Origin: Adineta ricciae
Taxonomy: Eukaryota > Rotifera > Eurotatoria > Adinetida > Adinetidae
Assembly (NCBI GenBank): GCA_905250025.1
Contig: CAJNOJ010000092.1
Span: forward strand, 124,001-188,000
Direction: 5' to 3'
Length of the DNA stretch: 64,000 nt
Part shown: positions 1-18,195 of the stretch, piece after piece
Layout: the number at the start of each line of letters is the position of its first letter
How positions within the stretch are numbered: position 1 is the first letter of the stretch
Position numbers and translations under genes: made by a program
Notes under the pieces: model-generated
Seen by the model: only the letters and a program-made list of their open reading frames with translations
Databases searched by the model: none
Told to the model about the DNA's origin: nothing

Positions 1-1131
1 CGCCAATCCGAATTTGATCATATCAACATTAAACATTGAGAATAATAATAAACAAGATTACAGTCACTCTATATGCATATTTATTTAAAGATGATGCTCG
101 AGGCGGCAATGATTGAGAACACACAATCGAATATGATTTCAATGAGAATGTCTTCACCTCTTTCATTCTAAATCTTACCATATGATCTAAACAGAGCGAA
201 ACAGCGAATACACATCCGACTAAAAAAAAACGAGCACATTTTCTTAAAAGCTGATCTGTGTATATGTGTTCAATTGCAATGACAAGCATTACTCGAGGGT
301 AGTATCAATCACATTTGAGAATCATTTGTACTGAGCATGTTTGCTCTATTGCTCATCAATAATAAATCTTTACTCTCTTCTTACGTTACCACATCTTCGT
401 CTCGTCGACTGTATATCTTGTACACATACCGATCAAGATGAATACGTGTGCTGTCCTACGAGACAATATAGCGTGACAGAGTTTCATCTATCTTCGACGT
501 CTTTCAACTGTACCGCATACGTATGTGTATGTCTGCTGAGAGTGAGAGAAACTTTTCTTTCACGGAAATTGTTGTCATACGTCTCATTAGCATCGAATGC
601 CTTTTATGAGTCCATCTTAGTAATCACCTCGTAGTCAGATGGTCTCATTTAAAGCAATTAACACTTATAAAGTAATGTGTCACGAGGGTAAATTTGTCTT
701 TTGCAAAATCGGAAGAGGAAACGGATGCAATGACATAATTTGTTTAGTGTACAAAAAAAAAACTGAAAACTATTCGTAAAAGATAATGATCAAAATTCAT
801 TTCTCGTTGTCTACATATTCAATCAGGTGAGACGAAGTCTAGTCAGCCGTTAATGTTTTCTTTGCGATTGTTATGGTAAACAACTTTTTTTGTTGTTATT
901 GTATACACATTTGAATAGAAAGTCAGGGTAATATTGGCAACAAATGTTGACAATAGTAATGGAAAAAAATTCGACAAAAAAAAAACTTCTAGTGCCATTT
1001 GAACATATTCGTTTGGTGAGAGAGTTGAGAGTCCTTCATGATTGAAACTTGAAAAAAGAAGCAAATGTGTATGTGTACGCTTATGTCAATCAGTGAGTTG
1101 TCCATAAAATATTCCGATTGAATGAAGGAGA

Positions 1132-1183
<52 letters not shown>

Positions 1184-1479
1184 AAAAGGAAAGGAAACCT
1201 TTTTTTGTTTATTGTACTGTTCGCGTCATCAGAAAGAACGACGAAAGAAATCAATTATAGTGCATAATGCACAATGAGAAAGTTTAAACGAATATTGAAT
1301 CTACCGTGATTGATTTCTCGTCCTATTTTCTAGAGATCATCGACGACATTTACACGCAGACAAGATGAAAAAGTTTTATCCATCGAGTAACATCATCACG
1401 AGTTAATTGCAATCATTGTTTTACCTATAGATCATAGTTGATGATTTCTATTTAAATAAGTCATGTGGTATATTCGATC
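1..1479. other. gene-poor 5' flank with a GA microsatellite
   Basis: I see no convincing coding exon here. The open frames are short, lack recognisable domains and do not join across plausible GT..AG introns. The only clear structure is the long GA tract at about 1131-1180, listed separately. The last few hundred bases are the presumptive promoter and 5' UTR of the VWC gene that starts at 1480. Confidence 0.5.
1131..1180. repeat. GA dinucleotide microsatellite
   Basis: A nearly perfect run of alternating G and A covers about 50 bases and grades into GAAAAGG-type purine sequence on its right side. It lies about 300 bp upstream of the VWC gene. It is a simple repeat; a length-variable promoter element is only a guess. 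Confidence 0.9.
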
Positions 1480-3745
1480 ATGTTATCATCAATTTCTCTT
1501 CTACTTTTATTAATATTCATTTTCATCAATACAATTCACACAAGTCAATTTGGATGCGAATACAATTCGACAACTTATCCGGTAAGTCACTCTGCAATGA
1601 GATTAATCATCTCGAGACGTGTTCGTTTTACTTATTTGAGATTAATACTGAATGGACATTAGCTGATTCTTGTCAAACATGTAAATGTTTATCGAATCAA
1701 ATTATTATTTGCCGAAATCGAACATGTCAATTGACGAGAGATTGTCGAATGGTAACGAAAGACAAAAAATCGATTTGAATTGGAATCGAGTATTTCTCCT
1801 AGGGTGAACAACTGACGCTGAAAACAGGTTCCTGTTGTCCAACATGTGCATCTGTTCGACGATCTTGTCTCTACGATGGTACAGCAATTCTCGTATGTAA
1901 ATACAAGTGATTTTCCATCAACAGAATGTCTTGTTTTATCTAGCATAATACGATATTCTATCCGAAACCATGCCTACAATGTCGTTGCCGAGATGGTCAA
2001 TTGTTTTGTGATAATATTTGTCGTCCATCAATTTCATCAAGTAATTATCGATTTTTATTTGTTTAAGACGATTGTTTTCTTTTCGTACTTTAAACAAATA
2101 CGTTTTGTTCATTTTAGTAGACAAATGTTTGTTTGATAATGAATTTCATGAGTTGAATTCTGTCTGGTTGCCGTTACCATGTATCGTATGTCAGTGTCGA
2201 CAACTCGCATTGAAATCGAATGTGTCGTCGATTTGCTATATTAAACAATGCCCGATAATAAAAACTTGTCGTGAGGTATGACGATGATTTCATTGGAATA
2301 GTCGCTTCTGTAGATATATAGTCTATTCTAGTCGCTTCAATTCATTCCCGGTCGTTGTTGTCCAATATGTCGAACAAGTATTTGTCATGATCAATCAGGT
2401 CTTATTTATCAAGTGAGATGACAATGAATTCTATCGAGAGAAACAGTGTCTATTCACTTCAGGATGGGGATGTTTGGAGTCGGAAGAATAACTGTACACA
2501 TTGCCGTTGTCAACATGGTTTAAGTATTTGTACGGAAGAAAAATGTCCAGTACTACAATGCAAATCTGTATGTTCAACGAGATAGTTTATCAAAGAGATG
2601 ATTCTTGAGGATACGTTTAGGATGAGAAACTGATTCGTTTACCCAATAGTTGCTGCTCGGTATGTAGTAATCGACATATTTGTCGATTCTATGGAAATAA
2701 AGGATATCAAATCTATTATGAACATGACATTTGGTACACATCAGCTTGCCAATATTGTACATGTCGACGGTACAATCGAATTCTCTGTAAAAGCATCCAA
2801 TGTGACCATCAATTTTGCCTGGAAAATGAAATTCAAGAATCACGATCGGATAGTTGCTGTGTCACATGTCGACAACCGAAACAATGCTACTTGAACGGTC
2901 ATATTCTTAAGGTAGAAAATTAATCATTGCAAATCGATGGCGAATAGTTGAATGCCTGCTTGTAGGAAGGATCATATCTTGCATTGAATAACTGCACATT
3001 ATGTACGTGTACATCGAAACGTCAACCGGAATGTTATTCAAATTGCCGTCAAAATGGCTATGAAATAATGAAATTTATCGCATCAGGACAACAACGTAAT
3101 CATACTATTACCATCACCGATAGTCTAGCAACCATTATCTCTTGTATGATGTCTATCTATGATGTTCAAATTTCGAATCTCTATCACTGTTTTTCGATAA
3201 TTGTAGACTCAAAATTTGGATCGATGTTATCTGCGATTGATTCTCGTTCTCTTCTATTCCAATTCCTACCTTCGACAAGTGCAACACCAATTTCCAATGC
3301 GGCTATTCTATTAGGTCTCATTCACAATCTCACTGGTCAAATCTCCTATCGTTTAATCCTTATCGATTTCGATGCAACAACAGATCGTACTACGACAAAT
3401 CGTCGTGTTTCTGACGAACTACGCCTCTGGATGCCTCAGTCCATATCGACCCCACGAATGATTCAATCATCGATAGCTTTAGTTGAAGAAGAGAAATATT
3501 CAGAGCAGATTGTTTTAATAATTTTGATCATTATTCTCTCGTTTATATGTTTTATCTTAGTTTTAATCATTATTTTCTTATGTTACCGACGAAAACAGAA
3601 ATCAGTCGATTCAACTATTGATATAGACCGACCGCGATCATCATTATCTACTGTCGAAAAATTTCATGCGCCCGAACTAACAACGAAAGTAACATTATTA
3701 CCACATTTTCATGCTGTGAAGTCGGATCTTGGTACTGATGTTTAG
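1480..3745 (+). CDS. type I membrane protein with repeated VWC modules (CRIM1/chordin-like)
   Basis: I read about nine exons split by 40-60 bp introns. Exon 1 (1480-1581) encodes a start Met followed by a strongly hydrophobic leader (MLSSISLLLLLIFIF), a signal peptide; the upstream in-frame codon at 1465 is GTG, so 1480 is the start. The exons then encode about five or six cysteine modules with the VWC pattern CxxCxC followed by CCPxC (for example DSCQTCKC then CCPTC, and GRCCPIC). The last exon (from about 2968) carries one more CTLCTC half-module, a roughly 130-residue non-cysteine ectodomain, a transmembrane segment (about 3508-3583) and a short basic tail beginning CYRRKQK. VWC repeats typically bind BMP/TGF-beta ligands, and a membrane-anchored chain of them is the CRIM1 architecture. 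I see no IGFBP module at the N-terminus, so orthology to CRIM1 is not proven. Its 3' end is only about 90 bp from the convergent eEF2-like gene. Confidence 0.82.
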
Positions 3746-3832
3746 ATTTTATTGTGGTGTTTTCTTATTGATATAAAAAAGATTTCGGAATCAGAAGAGC
3801 ATAGGAAAGAAAGAAAGAAAAAAAAACAGAGT

Positions 3833-4344
3833 TTATTGTCGGTCGACGAGTGTTTCGATAGCTGGAACTTGTTCTGGTAAAGCTTTTCGTTGTCGGATTT
3901 CGCTGACGACTTGACCACATTTTGTATTCAATTCGAATGGTTCGCCAGGTAACAAAGCCCAGTGGTCAAATTGGCATTGAGGAAATGCTGTGCCACTTGT
4001 TGCATGACGTAATTCTTCTGTATAACCAAAAGACTCGTTGACTGGTAAGAAAGCTTTGATACGAGTTAAAGTAGTGCCATGCAGTTCATTTTCTTCGTTG
4101 ATTTGACCACGACGTTTGTTCAATGTCGAGTAGACCTTACCGATCATGCGTGTTGGACATTCGATGTCAACTAAGAAGATAGGTTCGAGCAGACGAGGTT
4201 GTGCCATGTGCATACTAGCCAAGAGACATCGACGAATAGCTGGAATTAATTGATCAGGTCGACGGTGAGCTAAACAAAAAGACATTGCATTGTTATTTTT
4301 GAACGCGAGTTTTAAGTCTGATTTAACATACCTGAGTCACGGTG
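3833..4344 (-). CDS. eEF2-like elongation factor, C-terminal fragment (domains IV-V)
   Basis: The frame aligns to the end of eukaryotic elongation factor 2: AQPRLLEPIFLVDIECP, FLPVNESFGYTEELR, AFPQCQFDHWALLPGEPF and a closing LVDRQ-stop correspond to eEF2 domains IV and V. One intron (about 4271-4331) separates a tiny upstream piece encoding HRDS from the main exon. The codon of the histidine that becomes diphthamide in eEF2 (H715 in human) sits at the start of the main exon, in AHRRPDQ. In human eEF2 the matching loop is IHRGGGQ, so the three glycines after HR are replaced by R-P-D, which is unusual. The gene is cut by the N at 4345; its N-terminus reappears at 9160-9373 on the same strand. 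eEF2 is the ribosomal translocase GTPase; given the divergence this may be a paralog rather than the housekeeping gene. Confidence 0.88.
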
Positions 4345-4345
4345 N
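4345..4345. other. assembly gap (single N) inside eEF2-like coding sequence
   Basis: An undetermined base lies where the eEF2-like domain IV frame should continue upstream. Immediately to its right the coding frame is instead TRPM-like, beyond its S4-S5 region. Both flanking frames are open up to the N and neither is completed across it. This is what a scaffold join with lost sequence looks like. Confidence 0.9.
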
Positions 4346-7300
4346 ACCTTGCTACAACAAATTTCTCTTCTGAATCTGCATATACAAATCGTAGAATTAA
4401 TCCAATGTAGAAAAGTATAAATGCTAGTAGTGTCATAAGTTTAAATAAGTCGCGAAAATAATTCTTTGATTTGCCGATCAAGGTAAGATTATCTTGAACC
4501 AGAAACTAAAATTTATCCACACAGCCAGCAATCGCGAAATATAGTTCCACATAAGAATTCTTACAAATCGTATTTCTTCAATTAGCATTCCACTAACAAG
4601 GAGAATAGTCGTGACTTCAGTCCAATGAATCGATAGTGTGCGGTTAGTTGGTGGCGAAAAGTCAAATAGAAGAACATACGAGAAGAGTAAAAGAAAGAAG
4701 CAATAAAATACCTGAAAAACAAAATTTTTATACTATTGTACGTATTCATGTATCAAGTACACGTACAAAATCGTAACAGAACTTTACCATTGGTGATAAA
4801 TGAAAATTTTTCCACCGATGTAGATACCGATTCAATCCAGAATTGGAATCCGATATCCGTGGATATTGAAGTGGATACGAATCACAGTAAGTAATTCCAT
4901 TCGAGCTTACGCTAAACAAGAAACAAAACTTATTGTGTCTATTGTTCGACTTGCACGCATACATCTTTGTTAAAGATTCGCCATGTCGACACTATGAAAG
5001 CATATTTCAGAAAACTAATTTTCAACCAAGTAGAGTAATCTTACTTCTACAACTTCTCTATAACATACAGTTACAGGTGCAGTCAATCCGAAAGTCACAA
5101 ATCCCAACAGCAATGCTAGTATATCACGCTTTCTCGACTGTTCAGGAAATAACTTATCGTACCAAATATTATTCAAAGCTTCAACACAACATGGCAAAGC
5201 AATGAAAGACTTGTCGTCTGCTTCAGCAGCCACCTAAAAATATATCCCACAAGAAATTTTAACTTGAAAAACAACATCTAGATCTACTTTACTTGTAAAC
5301 AAGTGACAAAGCCATATAGCTTGTTTTGTTGTAAGATTATTAAACATGCGCGATCTGCATTATTTTCAACGCATTCGCGTAGGCAATCAATTGCATATTG
5401 TTCGAAGTATGTTGCACTTGTCTTGTAGTCAGTTTTCAGATCTTCGTGAATAGCTTTTGTATGATATTCTTTGAAGATTTTCGTGGCAATCAATGCTGGA
5501 CAAATGCGATATTTCGTATGCGATAGAAGAACTTTGGCCATTCCGACATAATTCATTAGAATCGCCCATAAAAACAGATCACGCATGATATAATCTTGAG
5601 CAAGTTCTTTGGCTGTCTCATTGTTTGGTAGTGAGATATCAGTCGATCCTTTCGTATTTCGTTTTGTCAATTCAAATTCCATACGCTTCTCGTATTCGCT
5701 TTTATACGTATCGAAATACAGATTATGCATATAGTCACCGATAAGAACACGAAAAATAACATTAAGCGCGTCGATTGAATCAATCTTTCTGTTGGCTAAT
5801 TTTTCATTCGCATCAATAAATGTTTGTATCGGTGATGAAGTTGTGTTCTATGAACATATATAACAGATTTCGCCATCTGTGCCAGTATGTATTTACTTAC
5901 AATCTGTTCAGTTAAATAAAGATCTTTTAGAAACTTATCGTATCGTTCATTTGATCCTAGAAATGTATTTCGTGGAAAGAAAATTTCACCTGGATCAACG
6001 CCTAATTTGAGAAATTCATCGATGAAAGCGGGTAGATTTCTTTGCAGAGCTTCGATAAATATCTTTTCTGGATTCTAAATATAAAATTAGATGCATGTAG
6101 ACACCAATTATGTCGAAAACTAGTACCAATATGTTGTCTAAGCAATTTTGTAGAACAAACTCTTTCGCTACGTCAATACAATTCCAATCCATCGCCAATT
6201 GCAGTAGTTTGGACTTTCCATCGTTTTGTTTTTCGTAGGCAGGAATATTTCGTTCTTCGCTGATCATTTTGCGTCGCTTTTCTTTCATACTCAAGGATGT
6301 TTCATAAGCTAGAAACGTAATAGTGAACACACCGCTCCTATTTGACTTTTTGCATCAACTTACACCTGCAAATACTTCCAAACAATGTATCGGAAAAACT
6401 GCTTTCTAAGTTCAAATTGAATATCGTAATATTTCGGCGAATAGACGGTTGAAGACAAAATAGAACTTGTCGTACTGTTCTTTCTAACAACTCATCTTGC
6501 TTTGCATCAGTTGAAACATCTGCATTTCGTAATCTCAAGTCATCGAGATCAACCTGTGCAAAAAATGTACACCGTAAGTCATTTTTCAATCGTGTCTTGT
6601 AGTCCTTAAACAGATCTTCAAGTCTTGAAAAGAAATTTGTTCATCAATTAACAAAAAAAACAACACTTTTTGTTTTTACTTTGTTACTGAGTAATCGAGA
6701 TGCAACGAAGTATAAAGAATGGTTCTGCGATCATCAATCATCGTATAATGTGATTGTAAACGTAAAGATTTCTTTTTATTATCATGCAATTCATTAATAC
6801 TAAATAAGATGTCACTTTCACTCGACGGATAATCGAATTGTTTTGTATATAGCAGCCAACGAGTGAAGAAATCACATGCTCTTCCGCTACCCTGCACGTT
6901 ATTCAGATTCGAATTTTCAAAAATTTAATCCACTTATCTTACGGCAGTGATGACAACAGGAACGTTTTTGCTTAAATCGTAGAAAATATTTGCGATAGTG
7001 TCAAGATCTCCTCCGACTGCAACCGTAACGACTGGTGCTAAATAAAAATCATGTGGAAACATAAAACTTCTTTAGACAATGCGTACTGTATGGCTCATCG
7101 TATTTTTCTAGATTCGCCATGTTCAGACATAATCGTGTTCGGAAATCTTCCGTATCGGGGTACCCATATCTTCCATCGTCTAGCATTAGATAGTGGCTGT
7201 GATTCACTTCAAGTTCGTATTGATCAATTTTTGAAAATCTCTGCTCTTCATCTTCCTGTTCATATACAGATCTATTTCCGTTATTCGACTAGATCAATAT

Positions 7301-8186
7301 TCGAGTGTCGATGGAAGAATCTCAGATGACACGGCGCTCTACCTGTTTTATTGTTTCCGTTCCATCAGAGTCTATTAAATTTTGCACATTTTTAACTGAT
7401 CCCCATTTACATATACCAATAGCAATTATTTCATTGTTTGCGTGTTGTAATTTAAGCTTTTTGATCGCTTGTCCCACGAGTCGTACGATACGATTATTGT
7501 ATCCATTTGTTATTATCCATACATCTATTTAGAGAAACTTATAGGTCTATTTGATTGGTTGCTGAAGTAGAAATCAGACTTGATTTGCTCGCGACATTAG
7601 CAATGCCTCGCATTAAATTTGATTCTACTCGGTCAGTGAAATTCGAATAGGTTGTGCTGCCAATAATCGACATAATTAGTTTAGATTTCGGGATTTGCCA
7701 CACACAAAGTAATAATGATTTGATTTTACTCATTCTTGTATCAGGAGCGATACGGACAAACTAAATTTTTAGGCTAACATAATAAAACTTCAATAAATGT
7801 TATCTTACGAAAGCAGTCTTGTTTATCAGTGAATTTTGATGTTCGAACAAAACAGGTTTAGTATGAGTTTGCATATTCCAGTTTTCGTCATCTTCTCCTT
7901 TTCGGTGATCATGTCGCTCCGGTCGATTGCATACACAAACCTTCTTGTTTTGACTGGAAAAAAAGAAAGATTCATGAATCGAATTTATCTACATTGTACT
8001 TATGAAAGCGTGCAAACCTGCTTGGAACAAATTTTATGCAAACTCTGTAGTACAGTTTAAGTCTGGCGACATGCTCTGCTAATGAAGACTCTTGATTAGT
8101 CTAGAATAAGTCAAATATCTTATTTGTCTTCTTTGTGTGGCATCCTTTTTCACCTGATACGAGATCGAGTGAATACTGGAAGACAT
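4346..8186 (-). CDS. TRPM-like cation channel, copy A (3' end missing)
   Basis: Exons read right to left from an ATG at 8186 (MSSSIHSISYQ, then TNQESSLAEH after a 40-60 bp intron). They continue with the N-terminal TRPM homology region: RVCIKFVPSSQNKKVCVCNR, then the SLOG-type fold (PKSKLIMSIIG, then NVWIITNGYNNRIVRLVGQA and IAIGICKWG). Later exons carry the alpha-helical mid-region (YIMRDLFLWAILMNYVGMAKVLLSH) and membrane helices ending with LMTLLAFILFYIGLILRFVYADSEEK (written as two joined parts in the genome), where the N at 4345 cuts the gene. Pore, S6 and TRP helix are therefore absent here. TRPM channels are tetrameric cation channels with a large cytosolic N-terminus. Copy B at 9746-14834 has the same exon plan but is clearly diverged except for one patch around 5385-5595. 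The stop of copy C lies only 190 bp upstream of this start, so A and C are tandem neighbours. Confidence 0.85.
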
Positions 8187-8376
8187 GAGTTGTATGATTG
8201 CTCTATCTAGAAGAGAAAAACATTCAATAGATAAGTTTTTTTTAGATCAATCGGCAAATGTTAGTGATAATTAAAGTCAACAAAAAAGCATATGGAATTT
8301 AAAATTTGGCATTAAGAGTCTCCAGAGATCTTGGTTTACTAAAACAATAGAACATGTATACGTCGGGTGTGATTAT

Positions 8377-9158
8377 CTACGGATTATAGATAATTACTTT
8401 TTTCGGAAGTCCATTATTTTTTAGCTGTGTCATAACACCGTTGATCGCAAAATCCAAGTTCAATAAATCATCTTGCACTTGTGAGTTTACGTTTTCTTCG
8501 TTAGAAGTTTCAATCCCATGAAATTGTCTAAAGTCAATAAAAATCTACCATTGGTGAAATAGCTGCGCTCTTTCGTACTCAATTGAATCAGATTTCTTCA
8601 CTTCAGCATGGGCATATTCGAATGTGGACAGCTCTTCAAACAGCTGCCATTCTCTTACGAGACTTTCATCTTTAGCAATCATTTCTAAAATTATTTCATT
8701 GAGATACACTGTCAAGGTATTGGTTGAATAAGTTTACTGAATATTTTCTTGTGATTCTGTCCGGAGTTTTTGCTAGAGCAATTTCGGCGCAAAAAATATG
8801 AGAACATGCGACAGAAATCCCAAATATTGTAGGCAAAACTGATCGGGGCCACAAATGGTGATCGTGTAAAGTAATCACGAACAAGGAAATATTGTTGATA
8901 GTGCCAAATCTTCTTCGTCTCATCATACACTTCCTCGTATCGTTTGCTACAACATCCACCATATCACTCATCACTGTCAAACGACACACTCCTACCTGAA
9001 GATGGCAATGAGAAGATTCGTCAGAAGAATATTCACAAAGATCAGATGAACAGCAAGTAGCACATGAGTAGAGATCGACCATCCAGCATCTGCATGTCCT
9101 GTTCAATCACAAGTATTCAGCCTATCAATCGATCGCGGTCTTGTGATCAATACATACC
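8377..9158 (-). CDS. TRPM-like cation channel, copy C (3' end only)
   Basis: The right part encodes the last membrane helix (VHLIFVNILLTNLLIAIF) followed after a 40-50 bp intron by the TRP helix region (KRYDEVYDETKKIWHYQQYF, then LVRDYFTRSPFV). The exons to the left encode a short cytosolic tail (EMIAKDESLVREWQLFEELS, then FEYAHAEVKKSD) and a final exon ending KKVIIYNP-stop at 8377. There is no room for a NUDT9-H or alpha-kinase domain after the TRP helix. The gene is cut on its 5' side by the N at 9159, exactly at a splice donor that is intact in copy B at 10555. The last 308 bases (8851-9158) match copy B almost perfectly, while the sequence to the left is entirely different, so C is a distinct paralog rather than an allele of B. 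Confidence 0.83.
8851..9158. repeat. near-identical patch shared by TRPM copies C and B
   Basis: This 308-base block matches 10248-10555 with no indels and about five differences (roughly 98% identity), including two introns. The sequence immediately to the left of each copy is unrelated at the nucleotide level even though both still encode TRPM tail. The right edge here is the N at 9159, so the true extent of the patch is unknown. Confidence 0.92.
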
Positions 9159-9159
9159 N
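9159..9159. other. assembly gap (single N) joining TRPM copy C to eEF2-like 5' end
   Basis: Left of this base is a TRPM intron donor (GGTATGT on the minus strand); right of it is the eEF2-like N-terminal exon ending in GITIK. The TRPM exon expected before the donor is missing, as is everything in eEF2 after the GITIK motif. Both genes lose sequence at this point. Confidence 0.9.
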
Positions 9160-9373
9160 ATTTGATTGTTATACCTTTTTCTTGTTCCGCTTCCAGCGAA
9201 TCAGTAAATCGACGTTGACCAGCTTGTTGTTCGGTAATAATACCGGCTTTGTACACCAACGCATCGGTCAATGTTGATTTACCATGATCGACATGTGCGA
9301 TGACGCACATATTACGAATATTATGCGCCTTGGACATAGCCTCGGCTACAGCTTCAGAACGTTGTCTTGCCAT
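9160..9373 (-). CDS. eEF2-like elongation factor, N-terminal fragment (G domain)
   Basis: From the ATG at 9373 the frame reads [19 protein letters not shown], then [20 protein letters not shown] and [18 protein letters not shown] up to the [10 protein letters not shown] is the P-loop (G1) of translational GTPases, and [18 protein letters not shown] is specific to the eEF2 group. The start lacks the usual MVNFT opening of animal eEF2, and [11 protein letters not shown] replaces the common TDTRKDEQERG, so this copy is diverged. About 630 residues between this piece and the C-terminal fragment at 3833-4344 are missing from the window. Together the two fragments most likely represent one gene, because strand and order agree. 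The ATG lies 372 bp downstream of the stop of TRPM copy B. Confidence 0.85.
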
Positions 9374-9745
9374 AATAAACGGTAATTGAGTACGCTTTGA
9401 TAAGCAATGGAAAGAGTTGGTTGATAGATAGAATGAACTACTACCTTCGTATCAGCATAGACTGTGACAGAATAAGGATTGGAGAGAGTCTGATGTGCCT
9501 TTTATACGTGTATTATAACGCGCAGATGTAATTGCGAAAGTTTCTTTTTGATAGCCATAAGAATGAAATTGCGAAATAACAGTGAATATGTACTTTCGCA
9601 ATAACGTATCGAGAACTCGATGACTTGTTATTCTGTCAATATTATTAAAGTAGTCATTTTATTGATGTGAGTCAAAATGAAAAAGTATCATATCTGTTGT
9701 GCAATGATTTTGTTTTTAGTAATAAAAAAAAGAACGTTCGCAATT
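9374..9745. other. intergenic: presumptive promoter of the eEF2-like gene
   Basis: The 372 bp separate the stop of TRPM copy B from the eEF2-like start; both genes are on the minus strand. No open frame with a recognisable product is present. A 5' UTR and promoter for the eEF2-like gene are expected here by position only. Confidence 0.5.
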
Positions 9746-12700
9746 CACGCTTTTTGAGCTTCCGTAACTAATTCACATATTTCCTTGGTTGAAGAATGTA
9801 ATCTTATCAAGCAATCTTGGATTTCTTTGACACTGTTCTCAGTTACATTTGCATTAGCTTCTGTATTAGCTACATCTTTTCCTTTATCAATCTTCGTTGA
9901 ATTTGTCGTAGAAGATAATCTAAATAGCACATTTTGCTTTCCGAGAATCTGAACTTGTTCGTCAATTTACCCTGTTGTAGTCGATTTGGATGATTTCACT
10001 ACATCATGTGCATATTTATACGTAGATGCACCTTCGAATTGACACCATTTTTTGACATGCGATTCGTTTCTAGGAATTATTTCTAAAAAGAAATCACTCG
10101 TTCTTCATCAATCCATAGGTTTAATTCAACTTACTGAAAATTTTCTTCGTAAATCTTGCACTTTTGCCTTGAATTTGTTCTTTTATAACAAAGAGATACG
10201 CCATTCGAAGTAGTGAAGCTAAATTCATCACCAGACTTATGGGAGGTACAAATGGTGATCGTGTAAAGTAATCACGAACAAGGAAATATTGTTGATAGTG
10301 CCAAATCTTCTTCGTCTCATCATACACTTCATCATATCGTTTGCTACAACATCCACCATATCACTCATCACTGTCAAACGACACACTCCTACCTGAAGAT
10401 GGCAATGAGAAGATTCGTCAGAAGAATATTCACAAAGATCAGATGAACAGCAAGTAGCACATGAGTAGAGATCGACCATCCAGCATCTGCATGTCCTGTT
10501 CAATCACAAGTATTCAACCTATCAATTGATTGCGGTCTTGTGATCAATACATACCATCGAGACTCATGAGTTCGTTGTCGAATTCACCATAGAGAAAGTA
10601 GTAGACAGGATAGATGACGTTGCGAAAGATGCTTCGACCATCGAATCGAGTATCGATAGGACCACCTGTGTCGGTGGTGAAACCGTTGACTTTGGGGTAG
10701 TAAACCATGGAACGGGAAGCGACACCATAGGCAATCATGACAATGGCAATGATGCAGAGAAAGAATAAGAGATCTTTGAGCTAGAAAAGAAGAAAGATGT
10801 TGACGAGGAGTGTAGGTGTGTAGAGTACCATTTTCCAAATAGCGACAAGTTGTGGTCCAAGGAATGGTACTACGATGATGAACGATAAGGACCGAAGCCA
10901 CCAGAGTTCCAGATCAATAGCCATGATTACTCTGCAGAGTACAATGTATATAACTATATTCATATATAGGAAACAAACCGTGCGGAAACGAAATCTTGCT
11001 CCGAATCAGTACTTGTAAACCGTAGGATTAATCCAATATAAAAGAGTAGAAATGAAAGGAGTGTCATTAGTTTTAGAAAACTTCCAAAATAGTTCGTTAA
11101 TTTTCCTTGCCAACTGAGACTATCTTGGCTGAAAAACTAAAATAAAGTTCAATAATGAATTACTAGCGAAGTAGAAACGAAAACCAAGCACTCACATAGT
11201 GGATTTCTTCTACTACCATGAAAGTAACTAGAATAATTGTGGCAATTTCAGTCCAATGAATGGATGGCGAACTACCAGTTGGTGGTGAAAATTTAAATAG
11301 AAGGAAGTATGAAAAGAATAGGAGAAACACAATGTAAGACACCTATAAAAAATTTAGCAAATAGCAAAGCCTATGTTAGTAGAGCCCGTGTACAAACCAG
11401 ATGGTAGGCGTATTTAATCGGGAGTGATTGATGAAATTTAATTAGTTTAGGTAAGTACCGTTCGTATGCTGGTTTAGGTACAGATTCGCGAGGATATTCC
11501 AGTAGAAGCGAATCGTGATAGTTCAGTCCATTCGATTTCAGTCGATACTGATACCTTCAATGAATATCTCTAGTATCGCTTCGTTTCACAATTGAAGAAA
11601 TTACCTGCTATCCGTAGGCTCAGGTGTTTTGGGTTTCTAAAGTGCAATTCCTATATTTCTTCTTATCTCCTTCTATTTTTTGTCTAACCTGTTCACCTTC
11701 TCGATATCTAACGCATAGAGGAGCTGCCAAACCACATGTTAGAAATCCTAACGCCAAGCCCAGTACATCACGTTTTCTTCCTTGCTCAGGGTACAGTTTA
11801 TCGTACCAGATATTATTCAGAGCTTGAACACAACAAGGTGTAGAGAGAAAGTTTTTATCATCAGCGACTGCTGCAATCTACAAACATATTTCAGCACAAC
11901 TGATTATCCGGAAAATAACATTCAGATATACTTTACTTGTAAACAAGTAGCGTAGCCATATAGCTCGTTTTGTTGTAAAATGATCGCACATGCTTTCTCA
12001 CGATCATGGTCGTCACATTTGTCTATACAATCAATGGCATATTGTTCGAAGTATGTTGCACTTGTCTTGTAGTCAATTTTCAGATCTTCATGAATAGCTT
12101 TTGTATGATATTCTTTGAAGATTTTCGTGGCAATCAATGCTGGACAAATGCGATATTTCATATGCGATAGAAAAACTTTGGCCATTTCGACATAATTCAT
12201 CAGAATCGCCCATAGAAACAGATCGCGCATGATATAATCTCGAGCTTTTTGGTCGGAATACATAGACTTTTTGTCTTCGATTGTATCTGAATCTTCATCA
12301 ATAACTGAGAGACTGTATGCTTTACGGTACGCATGTTCGTCTTCAAATGAATCAAAATATAGTTTGTGCATTTTATCACCAATCAGCTGCAGAAGAATTA
12401 TATTTAACTTTTCCACAGATTCGATCTTCTTTTCTTTCACTGAGCTATCTTCATCAATGAAATGCTTTAATTGTCGACGTTTATCGTTCTAAACATACAA
12501 GCATAGCAATATTTCCTTTCGAATCAACAGCTCTCATACCACTTCCTTGGATGTATACAAATTGAGAAGGAATCTTTTATACCGATACTTTTGTAACAGT
12601 CCTTTTTGTCCAAAGAATGTTTCACTTGGATCAATTCCTAAGTTGAGAAATTCATCAACAAAGGAAGGTAATTTGTTTTTTAGAGCATCGATGAAAGCTT

Positions 12701-14834
12701 GATGTTTATCCTAAAGAAATGTATGATTGTTTAGCAAATAATATTAAAATAGAAATCTTACTAAGATATGATTCAATGAACCTCGAAAAATCCATTCTTT
12801 TGCTGCTTCAATACAATTCCAAGCCATTGCGATGCGAAGTAATTTGGATCTCTCTGCATTCTGCTCTTTTCGATCAATGAAGTATTGAGATTCAACTTCA
12901 ATGTTTTCTTCTGGAGGTCCTGATCGATCGATTTGTTTCGTTTTCGATAATGTTTGCCGTGCTAAAAGTTTGTCTCTCGTCACAGAATCGAAAAGGTATT
13001 TTAACTTACATAAGCAAAGACTTCGAAAAATCGTTTCCAATAAATTCATATCCGAACTTAAGTTGCACACGGTAAGGTTCGATCGAACAGCTGGTTGTAA
13101 ACAATATATCGCTTGCTTAACCAGAGTTTCGCATTCTGGTTTATCTTCATCAGACAAGTCTTGACTTTGACTTCCTTGATAGCTTTCGGTTCGATTGAAA
13201 AAAAGGATATTTTTCAAATCTTTCTCCAAGAGCTCTCGATAACTTTCGAAAAGTCTAAAAATAATATTAAAATGCAAACGAAATCGTATCTCATATTTAC
13301 CGTTCGACAGGGTTCGAATCGTTAGTTCCCGATTGCGTATCACTATACAACAAAAATGTGTAATTCCCACGACTGGAGAGAAAACAACATTACGCTGTAT
13401 TAGTGTCCAAATTGATATTATCAATGTCATAAACTTTTAGTCGATTTTTAACATCATTGTCAAGGTCTTTCGTGCGTAGCAACCATCGATGCAAAAAATC
13501 TGCCACTCCACCACTGCCCTACATATGCGTATCGGAAGATTTACATAAAATATCATGCTATCTCCTGTAATCTTACGTTAACAATTACAACAGGAACATT
13601 GGATTTTAAGTCATAATACACATTTCTTAGAGTATCCTTTCCTCCTTCAACAACTAGTGTAACAACTGGAACTAGATATCGAACAAACAGAAGAAACTTT
13701 ATGCAGTAGTAAGATGCATATAAATCAAAACAAATACGTACCGAAAACATCGTTTTTATGTTGTAACCTTCCAAGATGTACTACTAAGCGTGTTCGATAA
13801 TCTCCTATATCATATTTACGAATAGTCCCATCATCTAGCATAACATAATGAGTGTGATTCATTTCTAAATCACGTTCGCCACTGAATCGTTGCCTTTTTT
13901 CCTTTTCAATCGAGAGTGTTGATTTGTCCGCAAATTTCTGTCGTAATCAAAATACGTATTTCGATTTAGTTATTCAATTCAATTCAATTCAACCTCATCT
14001 AAATCTTCTGTTCTAGAACGTAAAGCTTGTTTTTTATTGCTGACACAACCCCATTTACATAAACCAATAACAGTGAGTTGTTTTGTCTTTAAATGTGTCA
14101 ATCTAACTTGACTAATCGCTTCACCAACTAGTTGAGCAACACCAACTTGATATCCCGTCGTAATTAACCATGCGTCTAAATTTAGCTCTTTGAAAATAGC
14201 ATCGAGTTTTGATGAAGCATACTGGATTTCAAAGCGATATTATTAATGCCGTTGATGAAATTCATTACAAGCCGATCACTTAGCTTGAAATATTTAGCAC
14301 CGCCGACAATTGATATGATGAAATCAGGCTGAGGAATTTTCCACGCCTCGAGAAGGATCCTCTCAAGCGTTTCCACGGGTGTATCCAAAGCAAGTTGAAC
14401 ATACTAAATTCAAAATATACTATGCTGATGAACACGAACCTCTCGCTTCATGTACATACAACTCCATTGTTCACAACTGGCCCATGTTTGGCATTTGGCA
14501 TTAGTACTGTATTGTTTGTCATACTCCATTTTGTTGTATGCGAAGAATTGGATTTGTGTTGATGATGTGCTTGTAGATGATTACATTCACAAATATTCTG
14601 ATCGAATCCACTACAAGAATGAAATTTCACCGCTAACACATGTAAGTGTCGAAACGAATATTACTTTTGTTCTTTGGGAGTATATTTACAGCATACTCGA
14701 TAACAAATGTTCAATTGATCAATGATCTGGTCTCGACTCAACTCTTGATTTGCCTAAATTCAGTCACATCACGGCAAGTAAAGTTTTCTTCTCAACTATA
14801 CCTTGTAATGTTCTTCACGACTGCTAGCATGCAT
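9746..14834 (-). CDS. TRPM-like cation channel, copy B (apparently complete)
   Basis: I could join the N-terminus by hand: ATG at 14834 (MHASSREEHYK), then ANQELSRDQIIDQLNICYRV, CCKYTPKEQN, GFDQNICECNHLQ and the conserved TNNTVLMPNAKHGPV. The SLOG-type region follows (PDFIISIVGGAKYFKLSDRL; AWLITTGYQVGVAQLVGEA; VIGLCKWG), then the helical region (YIMRDLFLWAILMNYVEMAK). The S5-pore exon (10556-10740) reads FFLCIIAIVMIAYGVASR and NVIYPVYYFLYGEFDNEL; the pore loop YGE resembles the acidic filter of TRPM6/7-type channels. S6 (HLIFVNILLTNLLIAIF) and TRP helix (KKIWHYQQYFLVRDYF) follow. The tail after the TRP helix is only about 150 residues and ends ELVTEAQKA-stop at about 9746. There is no NUDT9-H or alpha-kinase domain. 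Exact boundaries of some middle exons were not traced. Function: plasma-membrane cation entry, ligand unknown. Confidence 0.87.
10248..10555. repeat. near-identical patch in TRPM copy B (partner of 8851-9158)
   Basis: This is the second member of the 308-base pair described at 8851-9158. It spans the S6 exon, the short intron after it and the TRP-helix exon of copy B. The identity stops abruptly at the left edge within the TRP-helix exon. Confidence 0.92.
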
Positions 14835-15425
14835 TTTCGAAAGTAATAAGTTGTACAACACTGTGTAGGTGCACCGACAACCTCATTAAAAAAATTATAT
14901 AAACAGCACACAAGAAAAGGTTTCATGACTACGTGAGTATGACGACCTGGAAATTTACTTGGAAAGGGAACTGTGAAGCCAAAAAAATAGTAAGTTTGCA
15001 ACATTTGCCAGTTTTCTTTCTTAAATTAATCATACTATGTAAATGAAATCACGATTGATGCAAACTATTACGATAGACGATATGATGTGAGTAATATTTC
15101 ACATTTCATACTTCATTATCGTACCATCATAGGATGATAAAAGATTATGTTTTCAGAAGGGACTATTGAGTGTATTGGTCATGTCTGGTAGTGTGAAAAA
15201 GAAGAAAGAGAGGAGTTCTAAATTTCTTCCCTTAAACACTTCAGCGCTCTCTTTAAGGTCGTTTGCGGCAAAGAGTACATTCTATTTTGTAGTGTTGCAC
15301 GTTGCACGAACCAGTTCCGTAGACATTCACTCTCAACAAAACTTTTTAAACGTACTCCAAAACCTCTGAAGCGCTCTTGGTAAGAATTTTACATCTATCA
15401 TCAATTAAAATAATAAAATTTACGC
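14835..15425. other. intergenic region upstream of TRPM copy B
   Basis: About 590 bp without a convincing gene. The open frames present are short and show no domain. The region should hold the promoter of copy B, which is transcribed leftwards from 14834. Confidence 0.45.
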
Positions 15426-15917: not shown

Positions 15918-17238
15918 CTATATTATTTTTCACTCCCTTATTCGACATATGTCTAATCTCGTTTATTAGAATACAGAGCAAACGAATACATTTAATAATA
16001 TTTATCTGATTAATAAAATTTGTAAAACTAGCGATTTACTTTCGAATATTAAAGTGCTCAAAACGATGAATTTCTAGCATGATCTTTCTTGAAACTCACC
16101 AATCATATGCTGAAACTAGTCGAAAAATGTCAAAAGTGTGGCATAACACTCCGATGGCTGGCTCCTGGCTGTTCCGAGCAGAACCGGATAAATCAGATCT
16201 CCGACTTCGTATCCTGGAATAATACTTCCATGAAATCTCTGGAATGTTGTCGACATTAAATGGGAGCATATTGACGATCGTAGAACTTAACGGTATGTTG
16301 TTTATGTAGACGAACGAAGAATTCAATATGAATGTTTATCTACTTACATAGATATAAAGATATGAAAAACATATTCTCTGCAAGTCGTAGAAGCACTGGT
16401 AAGTATATTTTGACCTTTTGTGTAGCGGCTAGATTATTTCTAAGTGTTGGTTTTTGTCGATGGAATACAAATATGTCAATCAGATTTTAATGAGCTATCT
16501 GTACCAATAACTAAACCTGAAGACCCAAAAGTAAGTATGAATTTTCGATTGAAAATGAATCCGAAGCATTTGATTTATCAAGTTTGTAAACTAATTCTAA
16601 AAACCTCTACATGTGAATATTATCTTCGATGATTTCTAAAGTATTCGCAATGAAGAACGAAAAAGAACTCCAAGGATTACTGAATATTCAAAAAAAGCAA
16701 AAGAACTTTATCTAAAGCTTCAAGATCAAATGAATAGCATTCAACGTTCATGCCCTTATATACTACACAAGTTTTTTTCATGAAACAGATCATCATCCTG
16801 CATAATCAACGATATTGAGCAAGCAAAATAACAGTTAAAACTACTAAATATGCATTGATGAAAACATAAATATGTACTTGACTTCGATTGTCGTGATAAA
16901 CAAGATTAAAAGGACAACGAATGTTAATCCTATAAAAGGATTTTACTCTGTTCAAATAGATATTTTTCATTCATAATCGGGTAATAACTCTCTGTATTTT
17001 GATTTAAAATAAGATACTCTTGTTTTGCTGGAATCCGTTTCGAAATGATGAAAAAGAAACTTTGATTTAAGGAAAAAGATCCATACTTTTGTCATGAAAA
17101 CAATGAATCATTTCGTTTTTCTCGTTAATCTTTGAAAAGGCTGAGATTAACATTTGAATCATTTCAATTCTTTTGCTAAAATATATAACACATCACAGAA
17201 ACTTATTATTCGTAACATAATAAAACAAAAGATTAGCA
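15918..17238. other. intergenic region with possible pseudogene scraps
   Basis: About 1.3 kb separating the decayed frame from the serine protease gene. Apart from the short plus-strand fragments noted under 15426-15917 I see no gene. The last 300 bp would hold the protease promoter. Confidence 0.4.
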
Positions 17239-18194: not shown

Positions 18195-18195
18195 N
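18195..18195. other. assembly gap (single N) between serine protease and DCLK
   Basis: The base lies inside coding sequence of two convergent genes. On the left the protease stops just before its conserved C-terminal strand. On the right the DCLK kinase stops in its activation loop, right after GPIKTV. Both missing parts, plus the intergenic DNA between them, must have been lost at this join. Confidence 0.9.

Follow-up and report, generated by a model that had tools for sequence, protein, structure and literature searches.

In draft assemblies, the collapse of tandem repeats, with the excised unit misplaced, is a recognised class of error, and a nested gene is a gene located inside an intron of another gene. 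The locus that we describe here, in the bdelloid rotifer Adineta ricciae, shows similarities to both. With tandem-repeat collapse it shares near-identical repeats, a single path kept through them and a loose unit that is found elsewhere between joins of N, but here the loose unit apparently landed in a second, independent hole, within a gene about 1.4-1.8 kb away, where it imitates a nested gene. With nested genes it shares the parts of one gene that flank another; however, the host gene is incomplete around the insert, with 622 coding residues absent, and the boundaries are Ns, not an intron. The arrangement, a TRPM gene apparently nested within a gene for an eEF2-like translation factor, is almost certainly an artefact of scaffolding and not biology.

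The window, that is, the whole stretch of 64 kb that was analysed, corresponds to C92:124001-188000 (C-numbers denote contigs of the same assembly), has a G+C content of 35.6% and contains 3 Ns, each of them single, at positions 4345, 9159 and 18195. Homology and protein searches covered 130.46 Mb in 1,033 contigs of this assembly. A second copy of the region is located on contig C15, of which the 38.6 kb that were read (784000-822594) are free of Ns; window positions 18196-39031 align with their C15 homologue in a single alignment, at 95.3% identity, and the last base of C15, 822594, is the homologue of window position 9160. Being an assembled contig too, C15 may itself contain errors.

The outer gene is encoded on the minus strand and is represented by two end pieces. 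The 5' end (9160-9373) comprises 71 codons, translated from an ATG, matches the Pfam domain GTP_EFTU (PF00009, E 2.3e-18), aligns with residues 13-71 of yeast eEF2 at 68% identity, and is 99% identical to C15:822381-822594. The 3' end (3833-4344) consists of a short exon (4332-4344), a 62-base GT-AG intron (4270-4331), across which the frame stays open, and the last exon with the stop codon (3833-4269). The stretch 3833-4273 matches EFG_C (PF00679, E 1.3e-25), the piece aligns with yeast residues 694-841 at 47% identity, and among the 60 PDB matches listed for it, eEF2 chains come first, before Snu114, EFL1 and EF-G. Both the N-terminal and the C-terminal parts of an eEF2-type protein are accordingly present. 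The first-pass annotation had recognised an eEF2-like gene that is split around a TRPM block, with single Ns inside the coding sequence at both boundaries, and the Pfam matches and yeast alignment bear it out; the gap in the protein is equally real, but amounts to 622 residues (yeast 72-693) instead of the approximately 630 originally given.

The block between the two Ns (4346-9158; 4,813 bases) yields Pfam matches to the TRPM2-like domain (PF25508, E 1e-23) and to LSDAT_euk, annotated as 'SLOG in TRPM' (PF18139, E 6.3e-12 and 1.9e-7), with no Pfam match in 3 of the 6 stretches scanned. Most of it is the body of a gene, TRPM A, without its last exons (4346-8837, minus strand), which is 92.7% identical to C15:820763-816227. 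The remaining 321 bases (8838-9158, minus strand) recur at 10235-10555 with 96.9% identity and represent a second copy of a repeat that forms the 3' end of the TRPM genes; the left context of this copy fits copy 2 of the repeat on C15 and, by the order on that contig, it is the tail of the neighbouring gene, TRPM B. The body of TRPM B lies further along the window (10931-15031, minus strand), and its part 11012-15031 is 92.7% identical to C15:815440-811411. Both A and B combine PF18139 with PF25508, as expected of TRPM genes. The block had been described as containing parts of two TRPM-like genes, and the comparison with C15 specifies these parts as a TRPM A that lacks the last exons and the tail that belongs to TRPM B. 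The stretch 10547-10780 resembles the last membrane segments of such a channel and gave no Pfam match when an ion-channel pore domain was sought.

Comparison of the bodies of A and B within the window gives 67-79% identity over four matches of at least 50 bases, and the two shortest matches, of 38 and 24 bases, reach 82% and 92%, respectively. On C15, the two copies of the 3' repeat (821521-820805 and about 816226-815514, each of approximately 715 bases) are 95.5% identical, indels included, over 717 columns, with 95-99% identity when six stretches of 100 columns are taken one by one. The contrast between bodies that are mostly 67-79% alike and ends that are 95.5% alike looks like the outcome of local gene conversion of the last exons.

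The order of these elements on C15, read in the direction of the window, is eEF2 5' end, repeat, TRPM A, repeat, TRPM B. TRPM A thus lies clear of eEF2 on this contig and forms a tandem pair with TRPM B. The entire block 4346-9158 has its homologue at C15:820763-815897, about 1.6 kb from the eEF2 piece, and the homologue of window positions 10235-15031, with TRPM B, is C15:816226-811411. The 3' end that TRPM A lacks in the block, for which a search of the assembly had been proposed, has its counterpart at C15 821187-820764. In the window, there is a single path through the repeat (10235 to about 10930, minus strand; the right limit is approximate), compared to two copies on C15. Over the left edge of the repeat, a 100-column stretch is 95% identical to copy 1 of C15 versus 73% to copy 2, whereas the five stretches to the right of it are 91-97% identical to copy 2 versus 50-70% to copy 1. 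The left part of the path thus comes from copy 1, the tail of A, and the right part from copy 2, that is, B. To judge from the alignments, this switch from copy 1 to copy 2 appears to be the mark of a collapsed repeat, with the intervening unit gone from the path. What is missing from this path, TRPM A without its last exons and the second copy of the repeat, is what is now found between 4345 and 9159, and its likely place is to the right of the first repeat copy (about 10555-10930). In the window, TRPM B accordingly seems to end in the tail of TRPM A, and its own tail to lie at the edge of the misplaced block.

The block is in the same orientation as on C15, and divergence from C15 is even along the region, with 92.7% identity for TRPM A in the block, 92.7% for TRPM B and 93.9% for the spacer with the eEF2 5' end (9160-10234). 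Because the divergence of the block equals that of its neighbours, the block is the TRPM A that belongs to the C92 copy itself. The distance over which the TRPM piece was displaced from the tandem array to which it belongs is no more than about 1.4-1.8 kb.

No exact overlap of at least 8 bases spans any of the three Ns. Those at 4345 and 9159 are scaffold joins; the first lies inside eEF2, and the second adjoins the position at which C15 ends. From the end of C15, this contig and the window are identical for exactly 121 bases, with 2 differences in the first 308. The passages on assembly in the genome paper give a final k of 121 for the 'maxhap' assemblies, but default SPAdes settings for the initial assembly (PMC7943196). 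The agreement between the run of 121 bases and this k may be a coincidence, and conservation of the coding sequence may explain the run. At the right edge of the block, the last difference from 10235-10555 is 24 bases before the edge, which differs from the overlap that a simple fork in the assembly graph would leave. The scaffolder given in the same paper is SSPACE for R. magnacalcarata and R. socialis, and RaGOO for other species, in sentences that do not mention A. ricciae (PMC7943196); in the output of SSPACE-LongRead, a gap is represented by one or more N (PMC4076250). Where the third N stands, at 18195, C15 has 1,256 bases more (C15:804817-806072), which are unmatched in the window, so that a single N in this scaffold can represent real missing sequence. 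Elsewhere, approximately 2.5 kb of C15 (808605-811129) are absent from the window between 15417 and 15420, where there is no N, which may reflect an insertion or a deletion in one of the two copies, and window positions 16613-16794 have no match in the stretch of C15 that was compared.

In the assembly, 35 matches to yeast eEF2 were obtained. The middle of the eEF2-like gene of C92 and C15 (yeast residues 72-693), which the first-pass annotation had suggested could be sought in the same assembly, was not found in the 130.46 Mb searched; it may lie in what would be approximately 5 Mb of further assembly sequence. Loci with eEF2-like ends were found on C92, C15, C172 and C21, and all four are cut at Ns or at a contig end. 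The ordinary eEF2 on C172 covers residues 2-567, followed by a single N at 150514, with no 3' part in a further 5.5 kb, and that on C21 covers residues 2-52 and, after 60 Ns (274114-274173), residues 604-842. Given that the genes on C172 and C21 are broken at Ns, numbers of eEF2 genes taken from this assembly are unreliable. None of the candidate sources of the missing middle could be accepted. C172 has a 5' end of its own, which is 74% identical to window positions 9160-9322 over 163 bases; C168 and C175 each have a part of their own that starts at yeast residue 9 or 55 and runs to 801, with 23-46% identity; C39, C59 and C4 have N-terminal parts of their own, and C25 has its own C-terminal part (C39 and C25 were read in part). 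Altogether, no orphan eEF2 middle was apparent among the 9 other GTPase loci examined. In the yeast eEF2 search, C168, C175, C59, C39, C4 and C25 show 25-56% identity, and presumably encode other translation GTPases; some of the other GTPase loci outscore the C92 5' end, yet are less similar.

Two further contigs, C19 and C30, are 65-78% identical to the region and probably represent the homoeologous pair; no eEF2 match on either was among the matches listed in the yeast eEF2 search. Their stretches that match C92:118769-123362 lie approximately 2.9 kb from a TRPM match, in the same orientation. Given this proximity, it is probably correct that the left part of the window neighbours the TRPM array, with only the local order wrong. 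For window positions 1-3832 and 3833-4344, no second copy was listed in the assembly, and the best other match to C92:114001-124000 is 78% identical. With no near-identical second copy on the left, and the C15 copy for 9160-39031, the two-copy state ends at the break in eEF2. A likely reason would be a homozygous tract that was collapsed to one copy, such that both haplotype contigs ended at the same base.

From what is directly observed, namely, the order on C15, the change in best-matching copy along the repeat, the single Ns and the end of C15 at the same base, the following scenario can be proposed. The chromosome most likely carries the eEF2-like gene, TRPM A and TRPM B, in this order. 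The two near-identical TRPM 3' repeats would have been collapsed by the assembler, leaving the body of TRPM A and one copy of the repeat as a separate contig. Independently, the eEF2-like gene would have been interrupted when its middle did not assemble. The scaffolder would then have placed the loose TRPM contig, in its true orientation, probably into the nearest gap, which lay in eEF2, and written one N at each of the two joins. A misjoin is supported by three findings: the edges of the block are scaffold gaps, a gap-free homologous copy has another order, and the collapse junction is located where it would be expected; that eEF2 is also broken at Ns on C172 and C21 argues in the same direction. 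The earlier proposal that a scaffolding error put a TRPM contig into a gap in eEF2 is therefore, by the C15 order and the collapsed-repeat junction, by far the best explanation, to which our analysis adds the likely position of the block, the likely cause (a collapsed TRPM repeat together with an eEF2 gene that did not assemble) and the mixed origin of the TRPM B tail.

The same drawing could in principle reflect a real rearrangement on this chromosome copy, in which recombination between the tandem repeats released the TRPM A unit, and this unit then entered the eEF2-like gene, the middle of which was lost. The window as drawn does have one repeat path where C15 has two, C15 and C92 could differ for real, and a true loss would also account for the failure to find the eEF2 middle in the contigs searched. 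However, both edges of the block are scaffold Ns, the block retains its tandem orientation, and C15, with no TRPM insertion beside the eEF2 5' end, stops at the same base, which makes a rearrangement highly improbable; in view of the order on C15 and the N boundaries, we reject a real insertion with loss of the middle. Joins without exact overlap would also be expected if an unrelated or contaminant contig had been attached here in error, but the best relative of the block, 92% identical, adjoins the same eEF2 5' end on C15, which contradicts contamination, and the block diverges from C15 to the same extent as its neighbours, so that the chance of a foreign contig is negligible. We therefore retain the misplaced tandem unit as the explanation.

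The gene broken by this artefact is of interest in itself. The ordinary eEF2 on C21 has the loop HRGGGQIIP, which we take to be the canonical diphthamide loop of eEF2. In the window, the corresponding segment (4240-4269) reads HRRPDQLIP, with the histidine kept and GGG replaced by RPD, and thus departs from the canonical form. As judged by its sequence, the gene appears to be an eEF2 paralogue that has diverged and whose diphthamide loop is altered. A literature search found no paper that combines an eEF2 paralogue, diphthamide and rotifers, and for TRPM in bdelloids it returned titles on other subjects. A second, diverged eEF2 with open ends, beside ordinary eEF2 copies and unmatched in the homoeologous region, might tentatively be considered a specialised translation factor of Adineta ricciae, although we regard this as somewhat doubtful; the nested arrangement would be an artefact all the same.

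Taken literally, the window shows a spurious nested gene, an eEF2 gene that is falsely truncated and a TRPM B with the tail of TRPM A. A cheap test is to compare each single-N join with the homologous contig. In bdelloids, breaks in the collinearity of homologous blocks have been studied as signs of ameiotic evolution (PMC5916493), and local misorders like that of the TRPM block could be counted among such breaks.
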